This document shows positions 14,220 to 62,920 of a stretch of 64,000 nt of DNA, in pieces (the first letter of the stretch is position 1; each line of letters starts with the position of its first letter). The DNA comes from Fontibacillus panacisegetis. GTDB taxonomy: Bacteria; Bacillota; Bacilli; Paenibacillales; Paenibacillaceae. The notes under the pieces were generated by a model. That model saw nothing but the letters and a program-made list of their open reading frames with translations, made no database searches and was not told the origin of the DNA. The translations under genes and the position numbers were made by a program. Location of the stretch: NCBI RefSeq assembly GCF_900102215.1, contig NZ_FNBG01000005.1, positions 1 to 64,000 of the forward strand. Direction: 5' to 3'.

Positions 14220-14221
14220 AA

Positions 14222-16152: not shown

Positions 16153-16191
16153 TGTTTAAACTGGTTCAAAGATCTACATGCTTAATTTAGA

Positions 16192-34663: not shown

Positions 34664-34664
34664 T
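34620..34664 (+). repeat. attL of island 2 (tRNA-Val 3' end)
   Basis: 45 bases repeated at 56003-56047 with one mismatch. The integrase starts about 1.3 kb inside and reads towards this site. Confidence 0.9.
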
Positions 34665-34744: not shown

Positions 34745-34818
34745 TCTGGTGCCGAATTGGTGCCCTTTATTAGACTAAAGCGTTATTTTTTATGTTTTTG
34801 GTGCCATCTGGTGCCGAG
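34745..34818. repeat. Candidate arm sites, left (TGGTGCCGA-type repeats)
   Basis: CTGGTGCCGAATTGGTGCCC at 34746-34765 and TTGGTGCCATCTGGTGCCGA at 34798-34817 (the second pair inside the integrase 3' end). The same unit occurs near attR (55864-55907). Confidence 0.45.
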
Positions 34819-35966: not shown

Positions 35967-35980
35967 TGTCTTCACTCCTC

Positions 35981-36817: not shown

Positions 36818-37017
36818 TCTCAAATCTCTCCTCATAAATAGAATAGATAATCTATGATTGCAGCATTCATAATTAAATGCGTACAAATTTGGTAGCGATG
36901 CCCCAGCCTATATATTTATCCCTTCCAGCCATGTCATGTTGAATTTCCTATGTTCATTATCATGAATCTCAGCTTAAACGGCGTGTTAGTAACTATCATA
37001 TAGATGGCATAGGTTTT

Positions 37018-39113: not shown

Positions 39114-39605
39114 CTAGGTGTCCTGGCGATCTTCAGGGAGGATTAATTCTAGCTGCTCTCCTTCTCTTTTTGCAAATAGCCCATCGAGGTAAGCCAGAAT
39201 CAGTTTTCTCTCTTCGTTTGTAATTAAGAAATCTCTATAAGTAATATGCGGCTCCTTAGTAAGAAGGTTGTTAAGATCTGTCCAATAGGGCTCTTCATCA
39301 TCAAAATCATCCATGTCCATATTCTTTTCTCTGTCATATCGTTCCATGTCCAATTGTTCATTATAACCATCCAGATCTTCGTCCCAAAGATACCCCGCAT
39401 GTTTAAGAAGTTCAGCGTAATAAACACCAAGAGGACCAGAAAGGTTTATTAACATTTCACTTGAAGGGAAGTTTTGCTTTTTACCGTTTTCAATTTGTGA
39501 AAGATAGGAATGCGAAGTCTTTGCTTCCATAGCTAACTGCGAAAGAGTAAGTCCTCTGTTTTTTCTGAGCTTTTTTAGATACTGACCAAATTCCACTAAA
39601 TCCAA
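39114..39605 (-). CDS. Phage-type repressor (XRE)
   Basis: A 163-aa protein. Residues 5-62 are a Cro/C1 domain (LKKLRKNRGLTLSQLAMEAK, SYLSQIENGKKQNFPSSEML); the C-terminal half is acidic with no peptidase motif. It should hold the element silent by binding the CAGGAACATT sites in the 160-bp gap to the divergent Cro-like gene. Confidence 0.88.
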   Translation of the reverse strand: MDLVEFGQYLKKLRKNRGLTLSQLAMEAKTSHSYLSQIENGKKQNFPSSEMLINLSGPLGVYYAELLKHAGYLWDEDLDGYNEQLDMERYDREKNMDMDDFDDEEPYWTDLNNLLTKEPHITYRDFLITNEERKLILAYLDGLFAKREGEQLELILPEDRQDT

Positions 39606-39650
39606 CCTTTATCACTCTCCTTAACTATCATAATACACTAATTATCGCTA

Positions 39651-39740
39651 CAGGAACATTATTTATAAATACAGTGTTGCCCCAAGAACATTATTGTGAT
39701 ATCTTTATTTCAGGAACAAAAATGTTACTACAGGAACATT
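39651..39740. promoter_or_regulatory. Operator repeats of the repressor/Cro switch
   Basis: Four related sites: CAGGAACATT (39651), CAAGAACATT (39683), CAGGAACAAA (39711) and CAGGAACATT (39731). 39721-39740 also form AATGTT...AACATT. They fill the divergent promoter region. Confidence 0.7.
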
Positions 39741-39765
39741 TATAGAAGTGAACGGGGGTGATTAC

Positions 39766-39999
39766 ATGAGAATCCAAGTAAAAAGTATAGAACATTTGAA
39801 TCAACTTATTATTATGAACGGTTTCACTAAAACGGACTTTGGCAAGGAGATCAAACTATCAACTCCTATGACCATTCAAATCACCAATGGCGACCGTCAT
39901 CCTTCACCGAGAACAGCCAAACGTATCTGCGAAGTTTTGAAATGCGAATGGTCGGAGTTGTTCGAGATCGTCAAAACGCCGCAAGCTGCCAGGAAGTAA
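39766..39999 (+). CDS. Cro-like XRE protein
   Basis: A 77-aa protein with a helix-turn-helix (IIMNGFTKTDFGKEIKLSTP, NGDRHPSPRTAKRICEVL). First rightward gene opposite the repressor, so it likely acts as Cro in the switch. ATG 39766 has GGGGGTGATTAC before it; a GTG at 39748 is less likely. Confidence 0.8.
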   Translation: MRIQVKSIEHLNQLIIMNGFTKTDFGKEIKLSTPMTIQITNGDRHPSPRTAKRICEVLKCEWSELFEIVKTPQAARK

Positions 40000-43016: not shown

Positions 43017-43424
43017 ATGGCAAGCGCAAAATCAAAGGTTCAGAAATTAAAAGCAAAGGACTATGGATTCAAGCCATTCCAGAAGATGCCTGGAACCCAG
43101 CAGAAGAAATTCCACAAGTTTCATGAATCGCTGTTTGAATCGCCCGCATGGAATGACTTAACTATCCATTCCAAAATGCTCTACATCGAGATGAGCCGCA
43201 AATTCAACGGTACAAATGAAAATGAAATCTTGTTTCTCCAAAAGGAAGGCATTCAGATCATGGGCAAGAACACGTTCCACAAGTGTATCAAGCAACTTGA
43301 AGATCATGGATTCATTGATTATGTGCAGCGGAATAAGTATAACTGCCTTGCAAACGTGTATGGACTCAGCACACGATGGCACACGTTCATTCCTGAACAG
43401 ACTGGAAAGTCCGATAGCTCATAA
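43017..43424 (+). CDS. Replication initiator, winged-helix N-terminal domain
   Basis: A 135-aa protein with a winged helix of the phage replisome-organiser type (FHESLFESPAWNDLTIHSKM then LYIEMSRKFNGTN, EGIQIMGKNTFHKCIKQLED then HGFIDYV). Full-size members carry a repeat linker and a C-terminal domain; here two stops follow at 43422-43427, yet the repeat DNA continues past them as iterons. Either a short natural form or a truncated one. GAAGGTGAGGTGA precedes the ATG. Confidence 0.7.
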   Translation: MASAKSKVQKLKAKDYGFKPFQKMPGTQQKKFHKFHESLFESPAWNDLTIHSKMLYIEMSRKFNGTNENEILFLQKEGIQIMGKNTFHKCIKQLEDHGFIDYVQRNKYNCLANVYGLSTRWHTFIPEQTGKSDSS

Positions 43425-43448
43425 TAGTGCAACTGAAATTTTTTACGA

Positions 43449-43636
43449 GTCACCAATCAGTGACACAATGTGTCTTCAATTTGCGACACTAAACCTTACA
43501 TGAGGACTCAAATAGTGGTTTTTGTGTCTTCAATTAGTGACACGTGTAAATCCCATCTTCCCTTACTGCGTATGGGCTGGACGGCATTTTTTGAAATTAT
43601 CCTAATTCTCTGTTTTGTGTCTTCAATTAGTGACAT
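43449..43636. repeat. Iterons, likely replication origin of island 2
   Basis: TGTCTTCAATTAGTGACAC at 43525 (43618 reads the same except the last base), TGTCTTCAATTTGCGACAC at 43471 and AGTCACCAATCAGTGACAC at 43449. The last is a palindrome (GTCAC...GTGAC). They sit just after the initiator, as expected for an origin. Confidence 0.65.
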
Positions 43637-44094: not shown

Positions 44095-44187
44095 GGGAGG
44101 TGAATACCGGCAAAGGGTAAAAGAAAAGCACCCTTGGTAGGATGCGGATCAGACAAGTCCATTCTACCGCAAAAAGGGGTTGTTGTC

Positions 44188-44655
44188 ATGAAATCTATAG
44201 ATAGATTGTCTGCTGCTGTTAAGAAAGAGATTAAGAGGACGTTGGAAGAGTTGCTGGAGCGGTACCATCTGTCAAAATACACGCTATTCAAGGCTCGTGA
44301 ATCAAACATCACAACTAGCTATTCGGACAGACCAAATGGGCCAACAAACGTGATTAGCGACCCGACAGCTCGGATTGCAGTGTATAACGTGGATGAACCA
44401 GCTCGCCGTAAAGCCTTCTGTGAGCAGGTAGAACAGGCAGTAAGCCAGCTTCCAGAGAAGGAACGGTTCTTGATTACTGAACGCTACATGCAGCGTGATC
44501 TTCCCTATGACTTTGTGGTCTATGAAATGAGGATGGACCCACCGATCGGGGATAGAACCTACGATAAAATGAGAACTCGAGCCTTTACCCTACTCGCCTT
44601 AATGTTCGGTCTGGAGATCGAGGGGCTTGAGCAGTTCTATAAAAAAACCATATGA
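44188..44655 (+). CDS. ArpU-family late regulator
   Basis: A 155-aa protein with the ArpU pattern: LEELLERYHLSKYTLFKARE, RKAFCEQVEQAVSQLPEKER, LITERYMQRDLPYDFVVYEM. ArpU-type proteins switch on packaging and lysis genes in Gram-positive phages. ATG 44188 is chosen from AGGGGTTGTTGTC; an earlier frame extension lacks an SD. In a satellite it could respond to, or mimic, helper-phage control. Confidence 0.78.
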   Translation: MKSIDRLSAAVKKEIKRTLEELLERYHLSKYTLFKARESNITTSYSDRPNGPTNVISDPTARIAVYNVDEPARRKAFCEQVEQAVSQLPEKERFLITERYMQRDLPYDFVVYEMRMDPPIGDRTYDKMRTRAFTLLALMFGLEIEGLEQFYKKTI

Positions 44656-47439: not shown

Positions 47440-47496
47440 CCCTAATAGCTCAATTTCTCTGCCCATTGAAATAATAATTTATTAGGAGTGATATTC

Positions 47497-48144
47497 ATGT
47501 TTGAGAAGAAAACTTTGCAGCAGCATATCAATGAATTTACACGCAAGGTAGATTCCAGGGAGTCGAAAATCCATTCAAAGATCAGAGAGCTTGGAGAGCA
47601 AGCCGCATCCATTCAATCTCAAATCAAATTGCAGGCTGATAAAATTGTAGAGCTCGAGTTGAACAGCGGAAGTCCGGAACAGATTGATGCAGCGAAGAAA
47701 TCCAATCGTGAGTTGCGCCTTCAATTGGATGAGCTTCAAGATTCAATCGTTGGCTATCAGAATCAATTAGAACGTGACCCTTCCCTGTATGCCAAAGATT
47801 TAGAGGGCATTAGACAAGCTGCAAATAAGGCTGCTGCAGATCGAAAAAGGGAAATGGAAAAGCTTAGTTCAACGGTAGATGATAAGAAGGCTCAAATTCA
47901 AGCATTAGAAAAAGAGCTGGCGCAAGTTAGACATGAATGGAATGTCTTGTATCATCATGATGATTACTACACTTTCAGTTCGATGCTTTCTTACATCGAT
48001 CCCCGCGTCACTAAATTAGATCATTCAAAAAAGGAGCAATTCCTTAAAGATTGGTTGTCTGGCTCATCTTCACTCGAAAGATACTTTAAAGAACAGCCAC
48101 TGTCACATCAAGGTATTCAAAGAACAGTGATACCAAGGCAATAG
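47497..48144 (+). CDS. Coiled-coil protein, 215 aa
   Basis: Long heptad-rich helices span about residues 5-155 (QSQIKLQADKIVELELNSGS, KLSSTVDDKKAQIQALEKEL). The C-terminal 60 residues are compact (YTFSSMLSYIDPRVTKLDHS). TTAGGAGTGATATTC precedes ATG 47497. Possibly a scaffold or capsid-size factor; pure guess from shape. Confidence 0.6.
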   Translation: MFEKKTLQQHINEFTRKVDSRESKIHSKIRELGEQAASIQSQIKLQADKIVELELNSGSPEQIDAAKKSNRELRLQLDELQDSIVGYQNQLERDPSLYAKDLEGIRQAANKAAADRKREMEKLSSTVDDKKAQIQALEKELAQVRHEWNVLYHHDDYYTFSSMLSYIDPRVTKLDHSKKEQFLKDWLSGSSSLERYFKEQPLSHQGIQRTVIPRQ

Positions 48145-48192: not shown

Positions 48193-48381
48193 ATGGCATC
48201 GACACGTGAGCAGAAAGATGTCTCTCGTAAGAGTTTTGCGCAATGGAAAGCCAGAAACATGAAACGGTTAGCTAGCGGACCGCGGCACCGTGGCTATCCC
48301 AGTAGGAAAGAGCTTGAGGATCAGCATCAGCCTGCATCGAAATTATCTTCCAAACGTTCTTTGGGTCCTTCTGGGAGTTAA
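48193..48381 (+). CDS. Small basic protein, 62 aa
   Basis: MASTREQKDVSRKSFAQWKA then RNMKRLASGPRHRGYPSRKE: strongly basic. AAAGGAGGAAACAGCTA precedes the ATG. It ends 8 bp before the 28-bp repeat. A DNA-binding role is guessed only from charge. Confidence 0.6.
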   Translation: MASTREQKDVSRKSFAQWKARNMKRLASGPRHRGYPSRKELEDQHQPASKLSSKRSLGPSGS

Positions 48382-48388
48382 AATTGAC

Positions 48389-48416
48389 TGCGGGTGCGCG
48401 TGACCCCGAAATGGCG
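48389..48416. repeat. 28-bp direct repeat, copy 1
   Basis: Identical to 53415-53442. It contains GGGT-GCGCGTG-ACCC, a dyad with GC-rich centre reminiscent of phage cos or pac sites. The flanks are also similar for about 40 bp on each side. Confidence 0.85.
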
Positions 48417-48437
48417 CTAGATTTTAATTAAAAAAAC

Positions 48438-48544
48438 CACTTTCGCTTTCCTTTACAATTTTTTTGAAGAGATGGCCGGAAAAAATCACTTCGAATTAAG
48501 TCGTCAAGTGATTCCGGCCTTCTTCCATATCAAAAGCGAAAGTG
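48438..48544. repeat. Long nested inverted repeat
   Basis: Outer arms CACTTTCGCTTT / AAAGCGAAAGTG (12 bp), inner GGCCGGAA / TTCCGGCC (8 bp), innermost TCACTT / AAGTGA. As RNA this makes a rod of about 107 nt. The second repeat copy is followed by a like structure (53472-53569). Confidence 0.8.
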
Positions 48545-48930
48545 AGTGTGTTTCAAAAATGAAAGTTGATAGGAGGGAAATAGATGGCATCAAAAAACAA
48601 TATGAGATGTCCTTTGAACTAAATGGAGATATCGACCCCCGACTCACTTGGTTGTTTGACGATCTTTCCCAGATGTGATCACACGGAGCTACCAAGATGA
48701 TGATGGAGAATATGATTTTATTAGTTGTTGAGAAATGGACTTGAAGTTACTATTGGCACTGACGGTGTGGTGTATAGCGTTTCCGGTTAATTACCGAGAA
48801 ATTACCTTATCGTTGCCATGCGTTGGACTTTCTGGGTGGCATATTTGTATTGTAGAGAACAGGCGAGAATAACACGCACGGCTGCATGAATACGGCATTG
48901 AACCGGGGCGCAACTCTTCTCGCCTGATAT
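48545..48930. other. Decayed small-gene remnant
   Basis: AGGAGGGAAATAG before an ATG (MASKNNMRCP) near 48583 runs only 12 codons. Shifted frames show RSYQDDDGEYDFI and NGLEVTIGTDGVVYSVSG ending at 48790, so a small phage gene has decayed here. AGGCGAGA / TCTCGCCT (48863-48924) is a long-loop inverted repeat before the reverse-strand gene end. Confidence 0.4.
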
Positions 48931-50175
48931 TTACTGGATGAAAGGAAGTAAGTAGTCTACAAAATCATTGTATTTCTCATCTGAAGGCCTCTTTTTACCA
49001 TCGTCCGGTTTGCCTCTTGAACTCAAGTTAAGCCTAATATGAGCTGTATCAATTTTTAGTTCTAGGTTGGCGTCAATGAATCCAGAAGGTATTACTGTAC
49101 CAATTTTTAAAAACTCAATTTTTCTTTGTTCAAGTAATGTGGCTAGATTACTCCAATATAATTTATCCGTTGATATGCATTTAAAACCTTTATCTGAAAT
49201 GGAGACCTCTGCAAAGCTAGAATTATCCTCAGTTCGTTGGTTTCGAAATTTTATGCCTACAACATCTCCTAACTGCTCCAAATTTAAGGAAGAGGATATA
49301 ATAGCCAGCACAGTATTTGAAATGTAATCCGATGTAGTAACGTCATTTTCATGTTCGGTAGGAAATTTTGAATCAATAAGGTTAGAAAAATCATTAATAT
49401 GAGGCTGAAAATGGACTAATTTGGAACGTGCCGTATCTCTTTTGGGTTGTAATACATGCTCCTCTAGATTAAATAAAGATGTCCTGAAATTTGATATTTT
49501 TTTATAGCTAACGGTTGGCTTTAAGCTATCAATAAATTTTAAGGTTCGTTCAATGCGTCCTTCTTGAGTTCTAACTTCTGTAGCACTACTTTCAATTTTA
49601 TCAACATCTTTTATTCTGATATGGATTAAATCCCGCTTAAAGTCAAATTCAATCAGTGTTGCATATACAACATACTCAGGATCTTTGTTTTTTTCTTTTA
49701 TGGTTATCAAATTTTTATCAAGTAGCAAAATTCTGAATGAATCAGATTCGTTAATTCTGTAACCTACAATCACAAAATTTTCAACAGTTGCTTTTTGTGC
49801 CAATCCCTCGAGTATAACGTTCTGTTCAGGAGCTCCCCATTTCTTCAGAGCATTCTTAATAGAACCAGGATCATTAGGTACTATACTTGTAGCGTCAAGC
49901 TTGTATAAGAAGGAGTCGAACAATCTGTCCTCAATTAAAAGGAACAGAAGCTCATCGAGATCTTTTCCATTTAATTTAGTGGTTTCTAACCCAGCTGCAA
50001 GTGTCATGCAAATATTTTCAACCACGTCTATATTTTCATTATCCTGTCTATTCTTAGAATAGTCGTTCTTAAAATCCGGATATTTGCCCATGATTCTCAA
50101 ATGATCTTGAACTAAATTGTACTTTAGGAATGGTTTAAAATACATCAAGCTATCGAAAACGTCATTTTGATTCAT
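48931..50175 (-). CDS. Cargo protein of unknown family, 414 aa
   Basis: Not recognised. Helical start (DVFDSLMYFKPFLKYNLVQD), a beta-rich middle (NFVIVGYRINESDSFRILLL) and a C-terminal domain (SSRGKPDDGKKRPSDEKYND at the end). It reads against the rest of the element, which is usual for added cargo. AGGTGGGGTGAAA precedes ATG 50175. Lying between the two 28-bp repeats and near a SIR2 gene, an anti-phage role is possible. Confidence 0.5.
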   Translation of the reverse strand: MNQNDVFDSLMYFKPFLKYNLVQDHLRIMGKYPDFKNDYSKNRQDNENIDVVENICMTLAAGLETTKLNGKDLDELLFLLIEDRLFDSFLYKLDATSIVPNDPGSIKNALKKWGAPEQNVILEGLAQKATVENFVIVGYRINESDSFRILLLDKNLITIKEKNKDPEYVVYATLIEFDFKRDLIHIRIKDVDKIESSATEVRTQEGRIERTLKFIDSLKPTVSYKKISNFRTSLFNLEEHVLQPKRDTARSKLVHFQPHINDFSNLIDSKFPTEHENDVTTSDYISNTVLAIISSSLNLEQLGDVVGIKFRNQRTEDNSSFAEVSISDKGFKCISTDKLYWSNLATLLEQRKIEFLKIGTVIPSGFIDANLELKIDTAHIRLNLSSRGKPDDGKKRPSDEKYNDFVDYLLPFIQ

Positions 50176-50217
50176 TTTCACCCCACCTAACTATTTTTTA
50201 TAAAGGAGAACGATACC

Positions 50218-50394
50218 ATGAATTTTGAAATTTTTAAAAACAACCAATATGTAGGGACTATTGATGGTCAAATGATTTTTAACGAAAATACAAATATTAT
50301 AGCTGTCGGTTCCTTGATCCACATCCACGAAAAAAAGCATGTTGTAAAAGATGTCGTTGTTAAAAAAGATGGAAATATAACATTAATCGTATAG
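50218..50394 (+). CDS. Small beta-rich protein, 58 aa
   Basis: MNFEIFKNNQYVGTIDGQMI, FNENTNIIAVGSLIHIHEKK, ending NITLIV. AAAGGAGAACGATACC precedes ATG 50218. It is divergent from the 414-aa gene by 42 bp and might be its partner. No known family. Confidence 0.55.
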   Translation: MNFEIFKNNQYVGTIDGQMIFNENTNIIAVGSLIHIHEKKHVVKDVVVKKDGNITLIV

Positions 50395-50741
50395 TGTAGT
50401 ATCCCCTCCTCTTTCAGGTCTTTCGACACACATAGAGGGAAATCCTTCCTTATCGACAATTATCTTGCTATCTTGCATACAGTTGTTTTTTCGAAGATTT
50501 ATTTCTGTTCAATTGATTTAGTAAGGAATTTGAAGATAATAAGCAGGATGAAATAGCTTTTACATGAATTGTTTGATGGGGGGAGATTGATAGTTATTTG
50601 ACCCCTCATTAAAATGCTTCTGATTACTAGAATAACAAAGTACGTATTCTTTTTAGCAAAGAGCAAGCGTTTTTGCTGCGACCGACACAGTCGCAATGCT
50701 CTGGACGGCCCTTTGTACACATGAATTCAATATATAAACTC

Positions 50742-50771
50742 AGGTCGTTCCTTTCTGGGAACGACCTTTTC
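50742..50771 (+). terminator. Terminator in the cargo segment
   Basis: AGGTCGTTCC pairs exactly with GGAACGACCT, then TTTCTATTT. The stretch 50395-50741 before it holds no gene I can support. Confidence 0.85.
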
Positions 50772-50797
50772 TATTTCCATAAACGGAGCTGAGGATC

Positions 50798-50992
50798 GTG
50801 AAGGTCATTAAGTGGCTGGTCAGCATTGCATACGGACGCTCAGGAGATACGCTGAGAAATCGAGATGAACGGACGACATGGCAGGGAAACGTAATAATCT
50901 TCAAAAGTCACGTTCGAAACCCAAGCAGCGAGAGCGACGCAAATCTTGTTATTTGGGGAACTTGGACGGGCACGAAGCAATTTTGTATGTAA
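50798..50992 (+). CDS. Doubtful small ORF, 64 aa
   Basis: GTG 50798 with GGAG nine bases upstream; MKVIKWLVSIAYGRSGDTLR then NRDERTTWQGNVIIF. A second frame from ATG 50878 gives a basic 44-aa peptide (MAGKRNNLQKSRSKPKQRER). At most one is likely real. Confidence 0.3.
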   Translation: MKVIKWLVSIAYGRSGDTLRNRDERTTWQGNVIIFKSHVRNPSSESDANLVIWGTWTGTKQFCM

Positions 50993-51042
50993 AGGAGGGG
51001 AATCCTTCCTGATGTCGAAATATGATGACAGGAGGGATATGT

Positions 51043-51504
51043 TTGAAAGAATGGATCGCATTGTATGCAGCGATTGTATCAACAGCAGCGCTTATCTGGA
51101 ATATCACGTTATGGGCACTGAGTAAAAAAGTTCTACGTTTAAGGTGTAGTATAATAAATAGATTTGATATTCGAGATGATGAATGTCGCCCTAATAGTTG
51201 GAATGCTGTTGAATACCAAATTATAAACAGGGGTGACAAACCGATAAAGATTACTTACCTCGGTGGCACTTTTTTTACTCCGTATGGAGAAGGGAAATTT
51301 GCACTTTCACCTAATGATTTCCCTAAAAAAATTGAAGCTATGGATTCAATAACTATATTTAGGGAAGCACCAGACGTATTCGATGACCACTTGAAAGAAA
51401 TATATGTTGAAGATTCGATAGGCAGAAGATACTCTCTATCTTCTAGAAAAATCAGAAAGATTAAAAATCACGTAAAAAGAATGGACGAATACCTAGAACA
51501 TTAA
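51043..51504 (+). CDS. Membrane-anchored protein, 153 aa, next to the SIR2 gene
   Basis: TTG 51043 follows AGGAGGG by six bases. One N-terminal helix (ALYAAIVSTAALIWNITLWA), then a beta domain (VEYQIINRGDKPIKITYLGG, FFTPYGEGKFALSP) facing the cytoplasm or outside. Similar anchored beta proteins occur beside phage-defence genes, but no family is claimed. SIR2 gene 218 bp downstream. Confidence 0.6.
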   Translation: MKEWIALYAAIVSTAALIWNITLWALSKKVLRLRCSIINRFDIRDDECRPNSWNAVEYQIINRGDKPIKITYLGGTFFTPYGEGKFALSPNDFPKKIEAMDSITIFREAPDVFDDHLKEIYVEDSIGRRYSLSSRKIRKIKNHVKRMDEYLEH

Positions 51505-51722
51505 TTACTCCTCTATTTATGAACCAATAGGAGCTAATTTCAGACGTCAAGTTTCTGAACGTCCGAATACAAGCAAAAGCCCATGGGATAGGGCAGCAGC
51601 GTTGTTGCACGGCTCTATTTTTTGCATAGACGTATATTAAACTATCCAACTTAAATAAATTCCGCAAAATGACTTTAATGATTTAGAATTAGGTTATTAA
51701 CCGTTAAGGGGAGATTGACTGG

Positions 51723-53207
51723 ATGGATATTCAACTGAAACTTGAAGAACACTTGAAGAAATTTCACGCTGCTCCTTTTCTTTTTGTGGGATCTGGTTTT
51801 TCTCGAAGATACCTAAATTCTGAAGACTGGGAGGGACTTCTGAGAAGGTTTGTTGAGTATATTCGACCTGGTGGATTTGCTTATTATAAATCAACGGCTG
51901 AAGGAAGATTGGAACGGGCTGCTGGACTTATGGCCAAGGAGTTTCATCAAAAGTGGTGGGATGATGAACAATTCACAGATAGTCGTGAAGAGTTTGGTGA
52001 GAGAGCTACAGATACTTCTAGTCCTTTGAAAATTGAAATTTCAAAGTATTTGAAAGAAAAGAAATATGAATATGGTGAAAGTACACAAAATGATATAGAG
52101 ATTGAAGCACTTAAAAAAGTTGTTATTGATGGCATAATAACAACCAACTGGGACACATTGCTTGAACAGATTTTCCCTGATGAATTCCATAAGTATGTTG
52201 GTCAAAAGGAACTGTTGTTTTCAGCAACACAAGAAGTTGGTGAAATTTATAAAATCCACGGTTGTTCTATGGATCCAGATTCGATTGTATTAACAGATAA
52301 TGATTATGGAGATTTCCAAAAAAATAATCCATATTTAGCGGCTAAATTACTAACCATCTTTATTGAACATCCCGTGCTCTTTATTGGATATTCAATGTCG
52401 GATGAAAACATTCAAAATATACTTACATCAATTACTTCTTGTTTGAGTAAAGAACACTTGGACAAGCTTCAAGACCGGTTGATATTCCTTCAACGAAAAG
52501 ACAAAGGAGAAGAGGATACTTTTTTTGCTGGACCATTAACTATTAATGGGAACTCAATAATTGTAACTACAATAAAAACAAATGATTTTTCTCTTGTGTA
52601 TAAGGCACTATCCAAATATAAACGTAAATTTAGCGCAAAACAATTACGCCAGATAAAATCACAACTTTATGAAATTGTTAAGACTAGCGATCCTCAGAAT
52701 CAAATATATGTAACAGATGTTGAGGGGAATATAAACTCTCCGGAAGTGCAATTTGTAATAGGTGTAGGTGTTGCTTCTAAACTTGGTGAAATTGGTTATG
52801 AGCCAATTCCAATCAAGCAGTTGTATGAAGATATTGTAAACGATAGTCCATCCTATGATTATGAAAAAGTGACACTAAATTTGAGTACCTTTTTGAGAAT
52901 AGACCGTTACCTCCCTATGTTTAAATTTATCTTATTTAGTGGTGTGGCTGTGGAGGAGTTAGATGAGCGAGTAAAAAAAAGACTGAGTGAGATCACAGGT
53001 GATAGTTTTATTACGCTGACTAACAGAAAAAAAATAGGCCATATTCAAACTAATTGTAAAACTATTGAGGGTTTAATAGAACAATATGATGAAGTAGGTA
53101 AGGTTATTGAATATATTCCTCTCTTGGATAAAGAGTCAATTGACCAGGCGTTGTTAAGTGAGTTTATTCAGGAGAATATGGAGATATTGGAATATAAGTC
53201 TGGTTAA
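51723..53207 (+). CDS. SIR2-family protein (NADase-type defence candidate)
   Basis: A 494-aa protein. The SIR2-like domain covers about 1-260: FLFVGSGFSRRYLNSEDW (NAD-binding loop), DGIITTNWDTLLEQIF, IYKIHGC (with the general-base His) and PVLFIGYSMSDENIQNIL. The C-terminal 230 residues are of unknown type and may sense the trigger or oligomerise. Many such stand-alone SIR2 proteins deplete NAD when a phage is sensed (Thoeris ThsA, DSR types); this one is not assigned to a named system. AAGGGGAGATTGACTGG precedes the ATG. AT-rich compared with the element core. Confidence 0.85.
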   Translation: MDIQLKLEEHLKKFHAAPFLFVGSGFSRRYLNSEDWEGLLRRFVEYIRPGGFAYYKSTAEGRLERAAGLMAKEFHQKWWDDEQFTDSREEFGERATDTSSPLKIEISKYLKEKKYEYGESTQNDIEIEALKKVVIDGIITTNWDTLLEQIFPDEFHKYVGQKELLFSATQEVGEIYKIHGCSMDPDSIVLTDNDYGDFQKNNPYLAAKLLTIFIEHPVLFIGYSMSDENIQNILTSITSCLSKEHLDKLQDRLIFLQRKDKGEEDTFFAGPLTINGNSIIVTTIKTNDFSLVYKALSKYKRKFSAKQLRQIKSQLYEIVKTSDPQNQIYVTDVEGNINSPEVQFVIGVGVASKLGEIGYEPIPIKQLYEDIVNDSPSYDYEKVTLNLSTFLRIDRYLPMFKFILFSGVAVEELDERVKKRLSEITGDSFITLTNRKKIGHIQTNCKTIEGLIEQYDEVGKVIEYIPLLDKESIDQALLSEFIQENMEILEYKSG

Positions 53208-53296
53208 CGTATAGTAACTTTCGAAAGTTAATTCGTTTTTATGACTGGTTAGTTTATGGTAAAGATGTCCAAAACAAATTAGTATAAACGAAATTT

Positions 53297-53331
53297 AAGA
53301 GACGACCTAGCGACAGGCTCGTCTCTTTTGT
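53297..53331 (+). terminator. Terminator after the SIR2 gene
   Basis: AAGAGACGA pairs with TCGTCTCTT, then TTGTTGG. Confidence 0.85.
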
Positions 53332-53414
53332 TGGTAATGATCAGAGAACGAGTCCCAAAAGGGATAAGAAAAACAAATGCAAAAGCATGGGTCCTTTCAG
53401 CACTTAAAATCGAG

Positions 53415-53442
53415 TGCGGGTGCGCGTGACCCCGAAATGGCG
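53415..53442. repeat. 28-bp direct repeat, copy 2
   Basis: Identical to 48389-48416. The upstream context GGGTCCTT...TTAAAAT is also shared. It bounds the cargo segment on the right. Confidence 0.85.
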
Positions 53443-53471
53443 TCAGAATTATTTTCAAAAATTCACTTCCG

Positions 53472-53569
53472 TTTCCGCTTAAGGTCCTTTGGACTGAGGC
53501 ATTTTGATTTTTCGCTTCGAATTTATACCCGGAAAATCAATCCTCTGATTTCTAATCAAAAAGCGGAAA
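53472..53569. repeat. Inverted repeat after repeat copy 2
   Basis: TTTCCGCTT pairs with AAGCGGAAA across about 80 bases, analogous to 48438-48544 but shorter and less regular. From 53570 to 53945 no gene is supported. Confidence 0.6.
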
Positions 53570-53945
53570 TGACATGCAGACTCTAAGCGGAAGGAAGGTG
53601 TAAAAATTACAGTGTCTGCAGCTGCTTGACAAGTGCGGCTAGTTGTAATCCCTCCACATCTGTCTTCTGCCGATTTATGTAAATGTAAAGTGAAAATTTT
53701 AATGTGTATCTATCCTTGTTCGGGGGGCGTTCGCACCCGCACCTCGATTTATTCTCCAGAAGAACCTATGAAGCCCAAATCCGCTGCATTAATCACTCAA
53801 AAACGAAATGTCTTCCACTTCAATGTTCTGTCGTTCCGAGATTGTTTTCCTTGCCTTCTCTCCTAGTTAAATATCCTCATATGCAAAAGCTGTTAATATA
53901 GACCTCTTAAAAGCCGATAAAAATATAAAATACTGGAGGTCAAGT

Positions 53946-56002: not shown

Positions 56003-56047
56003 TCTTGACAGGGTAGGGGTCAGTGGTTCGAGCCCACTACAGATCAT
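56003..56047 (+). repeat. attR of island 2 (partial tRNA-Val)
   Basis: The last 45 bases of tRNA-Val with one change. D arm and 5' acceptor are missing, so it is not a tRNA gene. Confidence 0.9.
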
Positions 56048-56090: not shown

Positions 56091-56345
56091 TTGCTCTAAT
56101 ATCCATCTAGTCCCAAAATATTAATCAGGGGGCGGATTGGGGGGGCGAACAATGGAATGCAAAATACTTTCCTTAATGCAACACTCTATAGACGAATTAA
56201 TAAACTTAATAAAATTGATTTGCTACAATGTTGAACAAAAAATCTTTTTTATTAATTTTATTTGTAATGTAAGTATTCATTTAATACAGAAATAAATAGT
56301 TTTTTTCATTCTATCAAATTATTGTTTATGGTAATATTATCCTAG

Positions 56346-56873
56346 ATGCTTCTAATACCTTTAGATCAATTTTTGAGCAAAGGAGTGTTAATAATTTTCC
56401 CTTGGAAGAAGAAAAATGATGCTGTTTCATCGGGAATGCTTTTTATACATGCTTTAGAATTATCAGACAAATTCGAACAAGCCATTCAACTTAAATACCC
56501 AAGTCATCCTTATGTAAACGGAAAGTCAGAATATTGGTATCGCTTTGTTTCTGTAGCTGCTATGTTGACTGCAATTCTAGATTTAGATTCCAAGAATTTC
56601 AATAGTTATTATAAAGCATTATTGTTAAGGATTGATAATTGGTGGATTGATGGCCGTGGAGTTTCAGATAAGTTTGTAAAACAGTTTAAACCAAATGTAT
56701 GGGTTAAAGATAGCACTAGTAATTTAAATGAGATTGTTTCATTATGGCTTATGGCAAATATAACTAGAACAAAAGATATTAAAGACATTGATCAAGAAGT
56801 TTTTATTGATGCGGGTAATTTTATCTTTGATTTTTTTCATCAGTGGTTTATCAAAAATGATATGCCAATATAA
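56346..56873 (+). CDS. Unknown accessory protein, up to 175 aa
   Basis: Not recognised. Helical, with YRFVSVAAMLTAILDLDSKN and LLLRIDNWWIDGRGVSDKFV. The start is unsure: ATG 56346 has no SD, while AAAGGAG at 56380 would fit a start about ten codons in that is not a standard codon. First of three short genes ahead of the SEFIR gene. Confidence 0.5.
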   Translation: MLLIPLDQFLSKGVLIIFPWKKKNDAVSSGMLFIHALELSDKFEQAIQLKYPSHPYVNGKSEYWYRFVSVAAMLTAILDLDSKNFNSYYKALLLRIDNWWIDGRGVSDKFVKQFKPNVWVKDSTSNLNEIVSLWLMANITRTKDIKDIDQEVFIDAGNFIFDFFHQWFIKNDMPI

Positions 56874-56892
56874 AGTATTGAGGTGACCACTT

Positions 56893-57111
56893 TTGATCAA
56901 AGTAATCGTTGATTACAGCACTAATCGGTTAATTGATCATGGTAAATTTTTATTTGAGCGTAAAGTAACAACTTTAGACATAGCAAACCACAACTGTACG
57001 AAGGAAGAATTACATACTATAGCAAAGCAAAGTGTAATAGGAATTGAACAGACTTGCTTCAGAGAATCAAATAAGAATAAATGGATGTATGACAATAAAT
57101 GCCTAGGATGA
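56893..57111 (+). CDS. Small accessory protein, 72 aa
   Basis: TTG 56893 after GAGGTGACCACTT: MIKVIVDYSTNRLIDHGKFL ... KEELHTIAKQSVIGIEQTCF. Not recognised. Its TGA overlaps the next ATG. Confidence 0.55.
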   Translation: MIKVIVDYSTNRLIDHGKFLFERKVTTLDIANHNCTKEELHTIAKQSVIGIEQTCFRESNKNKWMYDNKCLG

Positions 57112-57248
57112 GTGCTATAAATAATAAGGCGATTACTTATCAGGACGTTTGTGACTTTATTATGAGGTACTTCCCTATGCAAATTGAACCTTATTCAGCA
57201 ATTCTACATTCTCTGTTGTATGATGTTTCTATATCATTTTTTACATAA
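57108..57248 (+). CDS. Small accessory protein, 46 aa
   Basis: MSAINNKAITYQDVCDFIMR then YFPMQIEPYSAILHSLLYDV. It starts by ATGA overlap with the gene before. It may be complete or cut. No known family. Confidence 0.45.
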   Translation: MSAINNKAITYQDVCDFIMRYFPMQIEPYSAILHSLLYDVSISFFT

Positions 57249-57478
57249 AATCTTTAGAAGCTCACAATCATTCTTCGTGATCGGTTACGTTTTCAGAAAT
57301 TTTTATATTGATTTTATATCCATAGTTATAATTTTTGATCCATCATCGATTTCTTTGAAACCGTATATACCAACACAAATAGAATATTCGATTCTTTAAT
57401 CATCTCAATCATACAAATTATCTCATAATAGTATTCCGCACAGTAATAATACGCATTTAAAAAAAAGGAAGTGAGTAT

Positions 57479-58901
57479 ATGGTAGCCTCTCCTAATAATA
57501 ATCCTCCTACAGTATTTATATCCTACAGTTGGACAAGTCCTGAACATGAGCAATGGCTGTATGACTTAGCTGAAAGGTTGATGGCAAGTGATGGGGTTAA
57601 TGTTAAATTGGATAAATGGGGATTTAAAAGAAGGATATGATAAGTATGCACTCATGGAAAACATGGTTACTTCTTCAGATATAGATAAAGTTTTGATCAT
57701 TTGCGATAAGGGATATAAAGAAAAGGCAAACGAGAATAAGGGAGGAGTAGGTACAGAAAAACTATTAATCACCCCAGAAGTTTTTGATAATGTAGAACAG
57801 TCGAAGTTTATTCCGATAGTAGCTGAAAGAGATGAAAATGGTAAGGAGCATATGCCTACATTTATTAAGTCAAGGATCTATATTGATTTGTCAGATGTTA
57901 ATACTTTTGAAGAAAATTACGAGAAACTTGTAAGGACTCTGTATAATGCCCCACTTTATAGGAAGCCACCTTTAGGCAAGAGACCAGTTTTCCTCAACGA
58001 AGAAACAATAAATCAATATAAAACCACAAATATTATAAGGCAAATTAAAAGTGCTATAGATTCTAATCCACGCAGAATCAAAAGTTTAGCAAGAGCTTTT
58101 ACAGAACTTTATTTGGAAGAGTTGGATCAACTAAAACTAGAACACAAAGACTTTGATCCGAATGAAATTGATGAAAAAATTGTAGAAAAAATTAATGCGT
58201 CCATACCATTAAGAGACAACTTTATTGAAGTTGCTAAATTATTGAGTGAAAACGATATAATTGAATCAGATTGGATAATTGATCTTTTTGAAAAATTATA
58301 TGTGTTTACGGAATTTAATACCGATGGGACTTATTATGAGATTCAGTTTGATCATTATAAATTCTTAATACATGAAATGTTCTTATATACATGTGCAATT
58401 ATGCTGAAATATGAACAGTACCAGCCGTTGTCTGAAATATTAACATCTAGGTATTATTTGGAAACTAAGCGTGGGAACAGGGAAGTTGATTTTGTGGTAT
58501 TTAGATTTTATTTACGTTCTTTAGATAGTAGAAATGAAAGGTTAGGTTTAAGGAAAATTAGTTTGCAAGCCCAGATGCTTTTAGAACGGACTATTAATGA
58601 ATGTGATATATTACTTCATTATTTCTCAAGTATTTTATTGAAAGATAGATATAGTTGGTTTCCTATAACTTATATATATCGGGAAAATGACTCTAATCCT
58701 ATTAAATTTTTGGCTAAACTTAAATCAAAACGTAAGGCAACCCAAGTGCTGAAATTATTTAATGTTGCCAGTATAGAAGAATTGCAAGCATTGTTAGGTA
58801 GTTATTCGCAAGAAAATGGTTATGGATACAGGGGGGCGTTTTACAATGTACCTATCCTACAAACACATATAAAACCTGAAGAAATAGGAATTAATCCGTA
58901 A
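57479..58901 (+). pseudogene. SEFIR-domain protein, broken by one extra G
   Basis: ATG 57479 (SD AAGGAAGTGAG) reads PPTVFISYSWTSPEHEQWLY, DLAERL and VKLDKWG, then stops after 53 codons. Removing one G from GGGG at 57616-57619 gives LDKWDLKEGYDKYALMENMV and a frame open to 58901, for a protein of about 474 aa. The SEFIR (TIR-like) domain spans about 10-165; the C-terminal 300 residues are of unknown type. Bacterial SEFIR proteins are seen in defence contexts as likely NADase or signalling effectors. Either a recent knock-out or a sequence error. Confidence 0.8.
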
Positions 58902-58947
58902 TAAAGATATATAGTTTAACAGTTTAGTTCATATATATTAATTACTA

Positions 58948-58981
58948 GAGCCTCTCAATTTATGCATTGAGGGGCTTTTTA
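58948..58981 (+). terminator. Terminator after the SEFIR gene
   Basis: AGCCTCTCAAT pairs with ATTGAGGGGCT, then TTTT. Confidence 0.85.
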
Positions 58982-59066
58982 TGTTGAAGATTTTAGATGA
59001 ATAATAATTGAATTTATAGGAAATAATAAAAATTGTTAAGTATTAATGAATGGGGGATAGTACGAT

Positions 59067-59237
59067 ATGAAAACGAATAAAGAAGATAGAGTGGTGCGAG
59101 AAGAACGCATAGAATATATTAATGATGATCATATTATCACACACAGAACTGATGGCAGAACATTAATAATAAAAGGTACACCTTCGGTAGAAACTGTAAA
59201 AATTTATAGAAATATTATTGCTTGCAAAAAAAGCTAG
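59067..59237 (+). CDS. Small protein, 56 aa (copy A)
   Basis: EERIEYINDDHIITHRTDGR, TLIIKGTPSVETVKIYRNII. The reverse-strand gene at 59302 has the same core (EEYIEYLSDDQTIIHRKDGG, ILIINGSPSV), so the two are facing copies of one family. GGGGGATAGTACG precedes the ATG. Unknown role. Confidence 0.55.
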   Translation: MKTNKEDRVVREERIEYINDDHIITHRTDGRTLIIKGTPSVETVKIYRNIIACKKS

Positions 59238-59301
59238 AACAAAAAAACTCATTAAAATAATAGAAAAAACACCAAATTATAATAAGTAAAATGGCTTGAA
59301 T

Positions 59302-59571
59302 TCATGTGCTATTATTTTGATAAAGATATAGTCTTTGTTTTTCTAGTAATAATATTTTCACAAATGTTTTACAATTATCTACTGAAGGCGATCCATTTAT
59401 AATTAATATTCCACCATCTTTTCTATGTATAATAGTTTGATCATCGCTTAGATACTCTATGTATTCTTCTTTCATTTTTAATTCTTCTATATATTTTTGA
59501 ATTTGATTTTTCTTATTTTTCATATAATTTAATCGCTCCCTTAATTGCTTTAAGGTCATCTCGTCTAGCAT
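59302..59571 (-). CDS. Small protein, 89 aa (copy B)
   Basis: An N-terminal coiled coil (LKQLRERLNYMKNKKNQIQK) joined to the core shared with 59067. SD weak. The longer form suggests that copy A lost its coil. Probably of phage origin. Confidence 0.5.
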   Translation of the reverse strand: MLDEMTLKQLRERLNYMKNKKNQIQKYIEELKMKEEYIEYLSDDQTIIHRKDGGILIINGSPSVDNCKTFVKILLLEKQRLYLYQNNST

Positions 59572-59816
59572 TTTAGATTGACTAATAGAGGGGATTGTGT
59601 GAGGTTGCTGGATGATACAAGAGATTGAAGGAGAAGGATGAGATCGTTAAGTTTAATCAATCTTCTTGTTGTTCTTTCGTCTGAATTAATCATATCAGCA
59701 ACATCTCTCATAGATTTCTGAGCGACCAATGGGCGAGCAGAAACATTGTTATTATAATTCTTATTCCCCGATATTCCTTCAAAAAAATCCATTCCTAATA
59801 CTATCAATGTATTCAT
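59565..59816 (-). pseudogene. ParB-like protein relic (HTH part)
   Basis: The readable stretch KSMRDVADMINSDERTTRRL then IKLNDLILLLQSLVS is the helix-turn-helix following the nuclease-like domain of ParB/Spo0J-type phage prote­ins. The N-terminal partition domain is absent and the tail is cut, so this is a fragment. Confidence 0.5.
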
Positions 59817-59847
59817 TAGAGAGCGCCTTAATCAGCCTATCTTCTGC

Positions 59848-60507
59848 ATGAAAATCGGCTATACGACACATGTGGAATTACCTGAGAATATTAAAAAAAT
59901 ATTTAAAGTGATGTTATTTCCGATAGGCAACTTTCTAGCTGGAACTGTGAATATTTCTAATAATGGATTTGATATATTCACTTCCTTAAACGAAGGAAGC
60001 GATCTATCAATAGTCGGTGAAAATGGAAACATTATGTTTATGGTTAATTACAAGGGTGAGGATTATGAAATACCTTGGTTACACATGCTTCAATATGCTT
60101 TTGATCAATTAAGATCTGAAGAGTATTTAACCAGTATATTATTGAGTGAAGTAGCATTAGAAACTTATGTCGACTCAACGTTGACAAACGGATATTTAGA
60201 GAAGGGTTTAGATAAAGACAGTATCTCAAGGCTGCTAACATCTGCAGAAATTCCTACAAAAGTAAATCCGTTGATGAATAACTTATTTGAAGTAAAATTA
60301 GCAGCGGCATCATCCTGGCCAGTATGGGAGAGGAAAGTACTTAAATGGAGAAATGAGATTGTACACGGAACTAAAGTTACTGCAACTAAAGAAGAAGCAG
60401 TTGAAGCTTATGAAGTAGTAGTTGATTCCATCTTCCATTTCATTGAAGGTTTTGATAAATTTTTAAAGAAGAATGGTTCTTCACATGGAATGTTTTACAG
60501 GACATAA
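59848..60507 (+). CDS. HEPN-like protein, 219 aa
   Basis: A beta-rich start (VELPENIKKIFKVMLFPIGN) then a helical C-terminal domain with KWRNEIVHGTKVTATKEEAV: R-X4-H (RNEIVH), the catalytic pattern of HEPN RNases, close to ApeA-like C-termini. The start has no clear SD, so the N-terminus may be truncated. A defence or abortive-infection role is possible. Confidence 0.55.
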   Translation: MKIGYTTHVELPENIKKIFKVMLFPIGNFLAGTVNISNNGFDIFTSLNEGSDLSIVGENGNIMFMVNYKGEDYEIPWLHMLQYAFDQLRSEEYLTSILLSEVALETYVDSTLTNGYLEKGLDKDSISRLLTSAEIPTKVNPLMNNLFEVKLAAASSWPVWERKVLKWRNEIVHGTKVTATKEEAVEAYEVVVDSIFHFIEGFDKFLKKNGSSHGMFYRT

Positions 60508-60734
60508 ATTAAAGCTCTTTCGAGGGCTCTTTTTATTTCATTTTCGGACCATAATGCGACATAACGCCATAAGGCGTTTTTATTTTTCCCTCGGAGCTGA
60601 TCTAGAGATGTAAATTCCATTAAAGACTATTATTTTACAACATTTAGGATAATAGTCACATCAATTGGTAGATTTTTGAGGGTATAATAAAGTAGAATCG
60701 GCCGATTCAATTATACTTAGAAGGGTGGAAGGGC

Positions 60735-61193
60735 ATGAAACTTAAAAAGGTTTTAACGGTACTTTTTACAACTATGATGTTACTTACAATGTCGTCATCT
60801 GTATTTGCCGCTGATGTATCACCTAAAATTTCTGGAATAGGAGATACAAAGGAAACAGCAATAACTCTTATTCCCCATTCACAATATAATTTATTTTTAT
60901 CGAACAGTACTGATCAAGATTGGTATTCATGGACAAATAATACTGGCGGAGACGTATCTTCTGCAGGCTATTTAAACCAAGGGAACGTCAATCATCGGGT
61001 TGGTTTTATGATTAAATATGCTAATGGTTATGAATCTGATATGCTCTATGCGATGAACAAACCAAATCATTCTGTAACTTGGCTAGGTTTTATTATTCCA
61101 AATGGTGCTACTGTTTATCTTGTCGTTGAACAAGTAGGAGAGTTTAAAAACGAAGGATATCACCTGTTATTTTTCGGTTTTCCAATGGATTAA
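60735..61193 (+). CDS. Secreted protein, 152 aa
   Basis: Signal peptide KKVLTVLFTTMMLLTMSSSV with cleavage after VFA. The mature part (DWYSWTNNTGGDVSSAGYLN, LGFIIPNGATVYLVVEQVGE) looks like the pre-peptidase C-terminal-type beta domain found in secreted proteins. AGAAGGGTGGAAGGGC precedes the ATG. Function unknown. Confidence 0.7.
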   Translation: MKLKKVLTVLFTTMMLLTMSSSVFAADVSPKISGIGDTKETAITLIPHSQYNLFLSNSTDQDWYSWTNNTGGDVSSAGYLNQGNVNHRVGFMIKYANGYESDMLYAMNKPNHSVTWLGFIIPNGATVYLVVEQVGEFKNEGYHLLFFGFPMD

Positions 61194-61203
61194 ATAAATA
61201 AAG

Positions 61204-61231
61204 CAAAAAGCACCCGAGGGTGCTTTTTCTT
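61204..61231 (+). terminator. Terminator
   Basis: AAAAAGCACCC pairs with GGGTGCTTTTT. It directly precedes repeat copy 2. Confidence 0.85.
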
Positions 61232-61261
61232 ATGCCCTCAGAGCCGATCTGGGGGTTATTT
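61232..61261 (+). repeat. 30-bp phage-associated repeat, copy 2
   Basis: Matches 921-950 except one base (synonymous if translated as MPSEPIWGLF). Fully paired 8-bp hairpin CCCTCAGA / TCTGGGGG. Confidence 0.6.
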
Positions 61262-61311
61262 ATATTTAAAAAGGAAAGTTGTTGAAAAATGATTAGAATT
61301 TTTAAGTCTAA

Positions 61312-61560
61312 GAACGTGTTGAAGCAGTTGCCTTCTCTGATTCTAATAAGGATATCATTCAAGCAATCATTAAATTTACTGGACTATCTGTAACTGTAGA
61401 ATATGCAACTGATGGTACAGTTAGAGCAGGGATAATAAAAAATGCGACAGATGTTTATATAGTAAATCTAGGTCAGTTTATTTACAAGGACAGCGAAGGT
61501 AATATTGGTGTTTGTGATTTAGATTATCTCAGGAATAATTTTGAGGAAATAATTGAATAG
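61312..61560 (+). pseudogene. Prophage gene remnant, 82 codons without a start
   Basis: An open frame (ERVEAVAFSDSNKDIIQAII ... VYIVNLGQFIYKDSEGNIGV) to the stop at 61558-61560. No start codon with an SD; the upstream part is missing or shifted. Not recognised. Confidence 0.45.
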
Positions 61561-61600
61561 AGACCAAAGATCCGCACTGTAAAAGAAGCGGCGGTTTTTT

Positions 61601-61630
61601 ATGCTCTTAGAGCTAATCCAAGGGCTATTT
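61601..61630 (+). repeat. 30-bp repeat, diverged copy 3
   Basis: ATGCTCTTAGAGCTAATCCA then AGGGCTATTT: 21 of 30 positions as in copy 1, and like it followed by GA(A/G)TTG. It lies 62 bp before a holin gene, after a T-rich terminator-like run. Confidence 0.45.
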
Positions 61631-61691
61631 GAGTTGAGCAGTTAAATGAAATCTTAAAAACTTCTCAAAATATCACGGAGGTAAGCATGTT

Positions 61692-61919
61692 GTGAATATT
61701 AACGAAATATATCTTAAAATATCAAATTTCAAACTATTAGCAAATAAAGATTACTCATCTTTCTACGCGCTATCGGGAGTACTTGGGGGAATATTAACTT
61801 ATGCGTTTGGAGGATGGTCGGGTTTGTTGGAACTGCTAATTATAGTCTTTGCAGTAGATTATATTACTGGGTGTCTTGCTGCTTTAAAAACAGGAAAAGG
61901 ACTAATATGGTATACTTAG
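61692..61919 (+). pseudogene. Phage holin, truncated (Bacteriophage_holin_4/TcdE-like)
   Basis: 75 aa: FYALSGVLGGILTYAFGGWS, LLIIVFAVDYITGCLAALKT, GKGL then a stop. Family members are about 140 aa and continue with SSKVG and two more helices, so about half is missing. GTG 61692 follows CGGAGGTAAG. Confidence 0.75.
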
Positions 61920-61970
61920 GTGGAGAAATGATGACTCCACCTTTTTTGTTTTAAAAAGGGAGGATTATCA

Positions 61971-62537
61971 ATGCCAGTATATAGAGACGAAACAAAGAAG
62001 AAAAATCAGTTTTGGTACGAATTTGAAGCAGGGAAAAAGCTAGATGGTTCCAGAAGAAAGATCAGGAAAAAAGGGTTTCTAACAGAAAAGGAAGCAACTG
62101 TAGCTATGACTAAAGCAATGAATGATTTCTTCGAGGGGACTTATGTTGAACCTTCTAAGATTAAATTTATTGATTATCTGAATGACACATGGCTTCCTGC
62201 AAAAAAATCATTAAGTCAGCAAACAAGGGAAATGTATAACAGTTACATTAATCGTCATGTGAAAACTTCTTCATGTGGAAACATCGAACTAGGTAAACTC
62301 AATCCAACGCACATGCAAAAACTAATTGTTGAACTAAGAGAAAAAGGACTCGCAGAAAATACTGTAAAGAAAATTTATAGTATCGTCAATACTGCCTTGA
62401 ACAATGCTACGTACCAACTGAGACTTATCAAAGAGAATCCAGCATTATATGTGATTGATAAACCTCAAAATGTAAAAACTGAAATTTTAGTTTGGGATGC
62501 TGAGGAATCAAGAAAGTTTGTGAAGGAATCTGAATGA
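61971..62537 (+). pseudogene. Tyrosine integrase, N-terminal half only
   Basis: 188 aa with the arm-binding domain (QFWYEFEAGKKLDGSRRKIR) and core-binding domain (YLNDTWLPAKKSLSQQTREM) but no catalytic Arg, His or Tyr. It marks an old prophage end. The gap 62538-62920 shows no gene. Confidence 0.85.
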
Positions 62538-62920
62538 TACATTGATATAATCCATTCAGGTCTTGTCTTCTCATCACTTATTGGACGTGACAAATAAATT
62601 TACCTTGTTTTAAATGGTCATGATATGGTCTTTTATCAAAGTTAATGGCAGTTTCCTGCTGCATACTAGGAAGCAAAAGTATTCTTAATTCGACAAATTA
62701 CGATATATTTTCGATGGTATATCTGATAAAATAGCACTAATTTATAAGAATAGATAAATACATAGGGATAATAGAAAAAAGTGCGATTCTTTTTAAAAAT
62801 TTTCATAATTTTCAGAGTATTCACCAAAATGCCGAGCATGTCATTAGGCAATGAAAAACTTGATAAACAACCGCTAAACAAGGTGCGAACGCACTTGCTT
62901 ACGATTGGAGAGTTACAGAA

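Follow-up and report, generated by a model that had tools for sequence, protein, structure and literature searches.

The 64,000-nucleotide stretch analysed here (the window) comprises positions 1 to 64,000, forward strand, of contig NZ_FNBG01000005.1 of Fontibacillus panacisegetis (RefSeq assembly GCF_900102215.1). It carries an element of about 21.4 kb between tRNA-Val attachment (att) sites, which resembles a phage satellite and contains two copies of a repeat that look like cohesive-end (cos) sites, designated cos1 and cos2. With a probability of roughly two in three, the element is read from its sequence as a satellite of the phage-inducible chromosomal island (PICI) type, in which two complete lambda-type cos sites would be kept as addresses for two classes of helper phage and would bracket a slot for cargo genes. 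This reading draws on the anatomy of the sites, the recurrence of such pairs, their homogenised core, their discordant R3 box, the covariation of that box with the small terminase subunit (TerS) in phages, and the satellite gene content of the element.

An exact 28-bp repeat lies in the same direction at 48389-48416 and 53415-53442 (letters read from the window sequence), 5026 bp apart from start to start. A preliminary description of this DNA had reported the 28-mer with similar flanks, and both points held: the 28 letters are identical from 48389 and from 53415, and they sit within a 94-nt repeat of 78% identity. The extent needs amending, since the 28-mer is exact but the repeated unit is the whole cosQ-cosN-R3 site. 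When a 20-mer of the repeat core was searched with up to 3 mismatches, it was found twice in the window, both times on the plus strand (48389-48408 and 53415-53434), against an expectation of 0 in 100 shuffles, which rules out a chance repeat. The sites and their parts are:

48362-48458, plus strand: putative cos1 (repeat, homology to phage DNA ends, lambda-like spacing, register)
48363-48369, plus strand: cosQ of cos1, GGGTCCT
48393-48404, plus strand: cosN overhang of cos1, GGTGCGCGTGAC
about 48438-48452, plus strand: R3 of cos1, ACTTTCGCTTTCC, with T at bp 51 (position 48443)
48533-48543, minus strand: R2-like inverted copy of the cos1 R3 (11/11 letters, bp 141-151)
53388-53484, plus strand: putative cos2 (repeat, lambda-like spacing, model R1 score, register)
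53389-53395, plus strand: cosQ of cos2
53419-53430, plus strand: cosN overhang of cos2, GGTGCGCGTGAC
about 53464-53478, plus strand: R3 of cos2, ACTTCCGTTTCCG, with C at bp 51 (position 53469)
53560-53570, minus strand: candidate R2-like inverted element of cos2, AAAGCGGAAAT, read from the sequence
53682-53767, minus strand: third cos-like site, degenerate and inverted (model R1, 32.3 bits; R3 CACTTTACATTTAC)

Both copies resemble complete cos sites of the lambda type: cosQ is followed after 23 nt by a 12-nt cosN overhang, and then comes a TerS-binding site like R3. The GGGTCCT of both copies is the cosQ sequence of lambda. Its distance to the cut is 23 nt in both copies, equal to that in lambda (alignment with NC_001416), and the alignment with lambda also placed an R3-like box at bp 46-60 in both; R3 of lambda itself has been placed at bp 50-65 (PMC9026076; this and all other papers cited are represented by extracts). 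Model R1 gave cos1 82.4 bits and cos2 71.2 bits, both copies being among its training rows. The R2-like inverted element agrees with its R3 in 11/11 letters for cos1 and 8/11 for cos2, and is mixed across 18 sites; a second cos2 candidate further on, TAAGCGGAAGG, is the best-scoring inverted match (8/11). The third, inverted site follows directly after cos2, and its R3 box is of the TTTACATT type, shared with G235 (genomes and loci are cited by our own G and L numbers).

Homologues of the repeat occur at phage DNA ends. By blastn it was found in phage phiERICV, just upstream of TerS-like and large-terminase genes, and as bases 1-62 of the record of Paenibacillus phage Lily, ahead of the annotated TerS and large terminase subunit (TerL); the Lily record, a physical end, opens with the same letters as the window from 48393. 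Further sources with the exact 20-mer beside TerS are a P. bouchesdurhonensis genome, Brevibacillus fulvus and contigs from IMG/VR. A duplicated cos site was one of the options in the preliminary description and is the one that stood, with Lily and phiERICV both having the core directly upstream of TerS/TerL, and Lily having it at its physical end too; the nearness to terminase genes or virion ends that it had proposed to look for was seen in phages for the core, the sequence used in these searches, which is neither confined to this DNA nor remote from packaging genes. Lily is reported to have 5' cohesive ends with 12-bp overhangs (PMC6070908), and because it is thus a cos phage the alternative of a duplicated pac site was set aside. 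Its further option of an insertion hot-spot was not needed, and the same homology to phage DNA ends rules out a hot-spot or a transposon footprint. No match was obtained by blastn with the 1.6-kb region around cos1 against phages, nor with 6.2 kb against plasmids. Exact 20-mer matches in high-GC genomes (L002-L008) were rejected from their context as chance matches in coding sequence, as were 20-mer matches in G282 (L061) and G016 (L021).

R3 is thought to be the part that sets which terminase binds, and in phages it varies with the recognition helix of TerS. The 62 sources used contained 59 TerS-bearing loci, and counts of distinct proteins refer to 42 TerS, a set without duplicates, without six loci that lack a usable helix pattern or fall in another class, and without the RR/KR/QR classes. 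TerS with arginine before the helix tryptophan (GK..RW) was accompanied by a TTCC box in 20/20 loci, duplicates included. Those with glutamine in this place (GK..QW) had a TTT box, except G264 (CTAGC); the boxes of L086 and of contig C50 of G158, where automatic placement was off, were read individually. The third helix class (GL.PRR) had CTTCGTTTC in 5/5. At the level of one base, Gln went with T at bp 51 and Arg with C in 41 of the 42 distinct TerS. A tree of the TerS body (the DNA-binding domain removed), built without G052, has at least 7 switches of class on supported branches. In 7/7 independent pairs bp 51 switched along with the class (p 0.0156, sign test). Some joins of this tree are unsure because of its long branches. 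The window carries one box of each kind. That of cos1, ACTTTCGCTTTCC, is the box of the Lily (Gln) class, also found in phiERICV, and that of cos2, ACTTCCGTTTCCG, is shared with phages of the Arg class, among them L053, L056 and L063, so that the cos1 R3 would belong to the Gln-helix TerS class and the cos2 R3 to the Arg-helix class.

Pairs of this kind recur. A sequence-only cos model built from 39 sites matched 52/394 genomes of the family at E 1e-3 and, with a cutoff of E 1e-5, 44/392 genomes sampled from the order; the two genome sets overlap. Ten genomes, from two families, had sites no more than 10 kb apart; these form 11 pairs spaced by 1.9-9.5 kb: ten pairs are on the same strand (the window, G210, G230, G174, G136, G358, G047, G235 and two in G398) and one, in G331, is inverted, with its sites on opposite strands. 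The window, G210 and G230 sites were among those used to build the model, which did not include the first G174 site or the pairs found in G136, G358, G047, G331, G235 and G398. Terminase-linked stretches of 20 kb had a single cos site in 19/19 cases scanned. Satellite-like genes were seen around the cos pairs, the G331 element being satellite-like and G235 giving weak satellite-gene matches only; Lily TerL, portal and major capsid were not seen around the pairs, and the surroundings of the G358 pair include a Lily protease-like gene. In G158, the 7.9-kb contig C50 (L164/L165 with C53) begins and ends with half a cos site and encodes TerS and a tape-measure homologue. C50/C53 may be a double-cos satellite that brings its own TerS and was split during assembly; it was left out of the pair count.

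Six elements delimited by repeats measure 18.8-22.6 kb, and since two such units make 84-101% of the 44,952 bp of Lily, packaging of dimers in full heads is suggested. Length also underlies a different explanation of the pair, which we hold to be improbable: the two sites would provide extra cos-to-cos lengths, or free the 5-kb cargo, and would have no part in helper choice. With a 21.4-kb unit and sites 5.0 kb apart, lengths of about 37.7, 42.8 and 47.8 kb would arise, close to the 45 kb of the Lily and phiERICV genomes. Against this, a single site already yields dimers near helper length, the spacing of pairs varies from 1.9 to 9.5 kb, and the R3 difference in every pair is left unexplained.

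Within pairs, the core is matched and R3 is split. Across the 11 elements, the likeness of the two sites of an element was 0.779 for cosQ-cosN (-30..-1), 0.939 for the overhang and 0.765 for bp 13-24, against 0.559, 0.822 and 0.577 in permutations; the observed value was reached by 0/20000 permutations in each case. Just upstream of the core there was no within-element excess (0.290 vs 0.280 permuted). When the set was reduced to 8 elements (one per genome, same-strand, delimited), p was 0.001 for cosQ-cosN, 0.006 for the overhang, 0.00005 for bp 13-24 and 0.72 for R3. At bp 51, one site has T and the other C in 11/11 pairs, two of which (G398a and G398b, from one genome) came to light in a search begun after the pattern had been seen in nine. 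The G398a sites differ by one letter from cosQ to bp 50, and then differ at bp 51. If T and C were independent at even odds, 11/11 would have a probability of about 0.0005, a figure that shared descent makes too small. In G137 (L052, L053) and G233 (L062, L063), two phages per genome share an identical stretch around cosN and differ just beyond it; in G137 the stretch is about 51 bp, with the rare GCGCATGAG. It is as if cosN cores had been converted between co-resident phages too.

The same comparison bears on the possibility that one site works and the second is a drifting leftover of satellite recombination or fusion, or of cargo capture. It is made unlikely by the retention of cosQ, cosN, spacing and R3 in both window copies and in most pairs, and by the overhangs, which are equal in 12/12 letters in 6/11 pairs and in 11/12 in 4 more; a drifting relic would not keep a matched core together with the T/C difference in 11/11. 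The sites that are damaged or lost in G246, G174 (cos1) and G050, the third inverted remnant in the window itself and the variation of cargo between elements speak in its favour.

Several observations weigh against two addresses for two helper classes. Around 10 candidates per genome were scored in the scans, so weak second sites may escape. G246 has one intact site and a cosQ-like remnant, G050 has one site, G035, with a related backbone, keeps just an 8-bit cos remnant, and the cos1 overhang of G174 is damaged (8/12). R3 as a whole is not significantly less alike within pairs than between elements (0.642 vs 0.659 permuted), and the claim of split specificity rests on bp 51 and its neighbours, not on the whole of R3. 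The discordance at bp 51 is itself tied to descent, the elements being related and G398a and G398b coming from one genome, and the T-sites of G136 and G235 (TTTAC) fit no TerS class seen. Of 18 sites, 11 have a downstream inverted element that agrees better with the site's own R3 than with its partner's; 3 tie and 4, window cos2 among them, agree worse. The genome that contains the window yielded no other cos site of this kind and hence no resident helper. The function proposed for the pairing is read from sequence, and removal of cos2 from the Escherichia coli element EcCICFT073 raised transfer, so a second site can have a cost (PMC6092414).

We give slightly better than even odds to a two-address packaging system in Paenibacillaceae-related satellites, in which one satellite would ride two terminase classes, with cores kept identical by gene conversion or selection, R3 kept split between Gln and Arg, and the cassette between the sites exchangeable. 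In the mechanism proposed, the TerS of a helper would bind the site of its own class and packaging would start there, so that both sites would be used, each according to helper class. DNA would then be drawn in toward higher coordinates, as in lambda, whose terminase is reported to remain with the cosB end (PMC9026076), and TerL would end packaging at a later cosN, of either site, once the head is full. Because cos1 and cos2 would leave the same overhang, their cut ends would join. Together, Gln or Arg in TerS and T or C in R3 would form a one-letter code allowing helper-satellite pairs to be predicted from sequence; if this is true, the helper range of a satellite is readable from base 51 of each cos.

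The gene content of the element is satellite-like. From its left to its right end, the features identified outside the sites and the cargo are:

34620-34664, plus strand: attL, att repeat, 3' part of the tRNA-Val gene (34590-34664)
34770-35984, minus strand: tyrosine integrase, 404 aa, adjoining attL (Pfam Phage_integrase)
35981-36886, minus strand: Bro-N domain protein, matching PADLOC PDC-S13
39114-39999: repressor (39114-39605, minus strand) divergent from a cro-like gene (39748-39999, plus strand)
43017-43636, plus strand: candidate replication module, a DnaD-like gene (43017-43424; PHROG 186) followed by three 21-nt repeats (43469, 43523, 43616)
44134-44655, plus strand: ArpU-family-like regulator, 47% identical to phiERICV ArpU
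47488-48144, plus strand: coiled-coil-like protein of 218 aa, ahead of cos1; 6/394 family genomes encode relatives
48193-48381, plus strand: 62-aa basic open reading frame (ORF) with an F.QWKARN motif, ending inside cos1
56003-56047, plus strand: attR, repeating the tRNA-Val 3' end with 29 exact bp before a single mismatch

The order is thus integrase beside the tRNA, repressor/cro, DnaD-like gene with repeats, ArpU-like gene, cos1, cargo and cos2. The integrase is 78% identical to that of G398a, an element of about 19.9 kb whose 44-bp att repeat resembles the tRNA-Val att of the window. A Pfam search of 20 window proteins (a part of all ORFs) gave no terminase, portal or capsid, and in a tblastn search with Lily and phiERICV proteins, ArpU alone matched in the element. 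With an integrase and fixed att sites and lacking packaging and head genes, the element is satellite-like, probably a PICI-like island. For its packaging it would depend on an infecting phage whose terminase is of the lambda type (Lily-like).

ORFs with a motif like that of the 62-aa ORF were also found in G210, G230 and G136, and this ORF is a possible packaging accessory. Such proteins raise the idea that a satellite-coded TerS partner (Rpp-like) redirects the terminase, one site being served by the phage enzyme and the other by a hybrid enzyme. There is precedent in E. coli PICIs (PMC6739421, PMC9026076), and in the window, G210 and G136 a small basic QWKA(K/R)N ORF lies ahead of cos1; G230 likewise has a motif ORF. 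We regard this as the least probable of the explanations considered: a profile search (E up to 5) gave no TerS-like protein in 11 satellite-like loci, where a diverged Rpp could escape, and both window R3 sites resemble helper-phage R3, unlike the cosB of EcCICFT073.

Between cos1 and cos2 lie three genes:

48931-50181, minus strand: 416-aa protein, no match in the libraries used
51022-51504, plus strand: 160-aa protein, no match in the libraries used
51723-53207, plus strand: SIR2-domain protein (Pfam SIR2_2; PADLOC PDC-S25, PDLC04968, E 2.4e-167)

The preliminary description had listed these as an uncharacterised protein of 414 aa, a transmembrane protein (the 160-aa product) and a SIR2 gene; the inventory stands and the length is corrected to 416 aa. 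The PDC-S25 SIR2 gene is a candidate single-gene phage defence. Tape-measure homologues lie between the cos sites in G210 (L045), G230 (L047), G136, G358, G047 and both G398 elements, with weaker ones in G174 and G246. The satellite tape-measure protein is homologous to that of phiERICV and as a rule follows another protein, of some 170 aa; in G358 there is a tail protein (phrog_52) as well. Cargo swapping between the repeats, another of the earlier suggestions, fits these data, other satellites with the same pair holding other cargo, mostly the tape-measure module. We propose that the segment between the sites is an exchangeable slot for tail or defence genes, which would place a candidate phage-defence gene between packaging sites here and tail genes there in most relatives.

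Elsewhere in the window, an apparent second element lies beyond attR (56100-62600), with a protein matching PADLOC bSEFIR (57588-58901, E 1.9e-76) and a short 188-aa integrase-like ORF (61971-62537). The region 13000-21000 has a low GC content (0.27-0.31 vs 0.35-0.47 around it) and is possibly another island.

In the open-access literature (most subscription journals lie outside it), no report was found of two satellite cos sites with different terminase specificity, nor of satellites in Paenibacillus. Double-cos satellites as such are already known, and the novelty here, as far as open-access print goes, is the combination of matched cores and split specificity. EcCICFT073 carries two cos sites, both functional: removal of cos1 cut transfer, that of cos2 had the opposite effect noted above, and removal of both abolished it (PMC6092414). 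Like the window element, it is a satellite without terminase whose two sites have helper-like cosQ and cosN, and it is packaged by the helper terminase (PMC6092414, PMC6739421). It differs in that its cosB is unlike that of the phage and Rpp redirects TerS, whereas the window R3 is helper-like and no TerS/Rpp-like gene was found; its two sites are not described with different helper specificity in the extracts of these papers. SaPIbov4 has two putative cos sites (PMC6092414), and SaPIbov4 and SaPIbov5 are likewise Gram-positive satellites packaged via phage-like cos (PMC6092414, PMC5052747), but with phi12/phiSLT-type helpers, about 14 kb and small heads, in contrast to the lambda/Lily-type cos and about 20 kb here. 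Lily and phiERICV share with the window the cosN core, its place before TerS in these phages and, for cos1, the Gln-class R3, and differ in having one site and a complete phage genome, terminase and head genes included. PLE satellites were recently reported to rely on a tape measure protein of their own (PMC12987554); in relatives of the window element a phage-homologous tape-measure gene lies between the cos sites, whereas the window element has none and the two satellite families are unrelated. In the extracts of PMC6092414, the double cos of EcCICFT073 and SaPIbov4 is not attributed to helper choice; a packaging range of two helpers would give a testable reason for the double cos of satellites.

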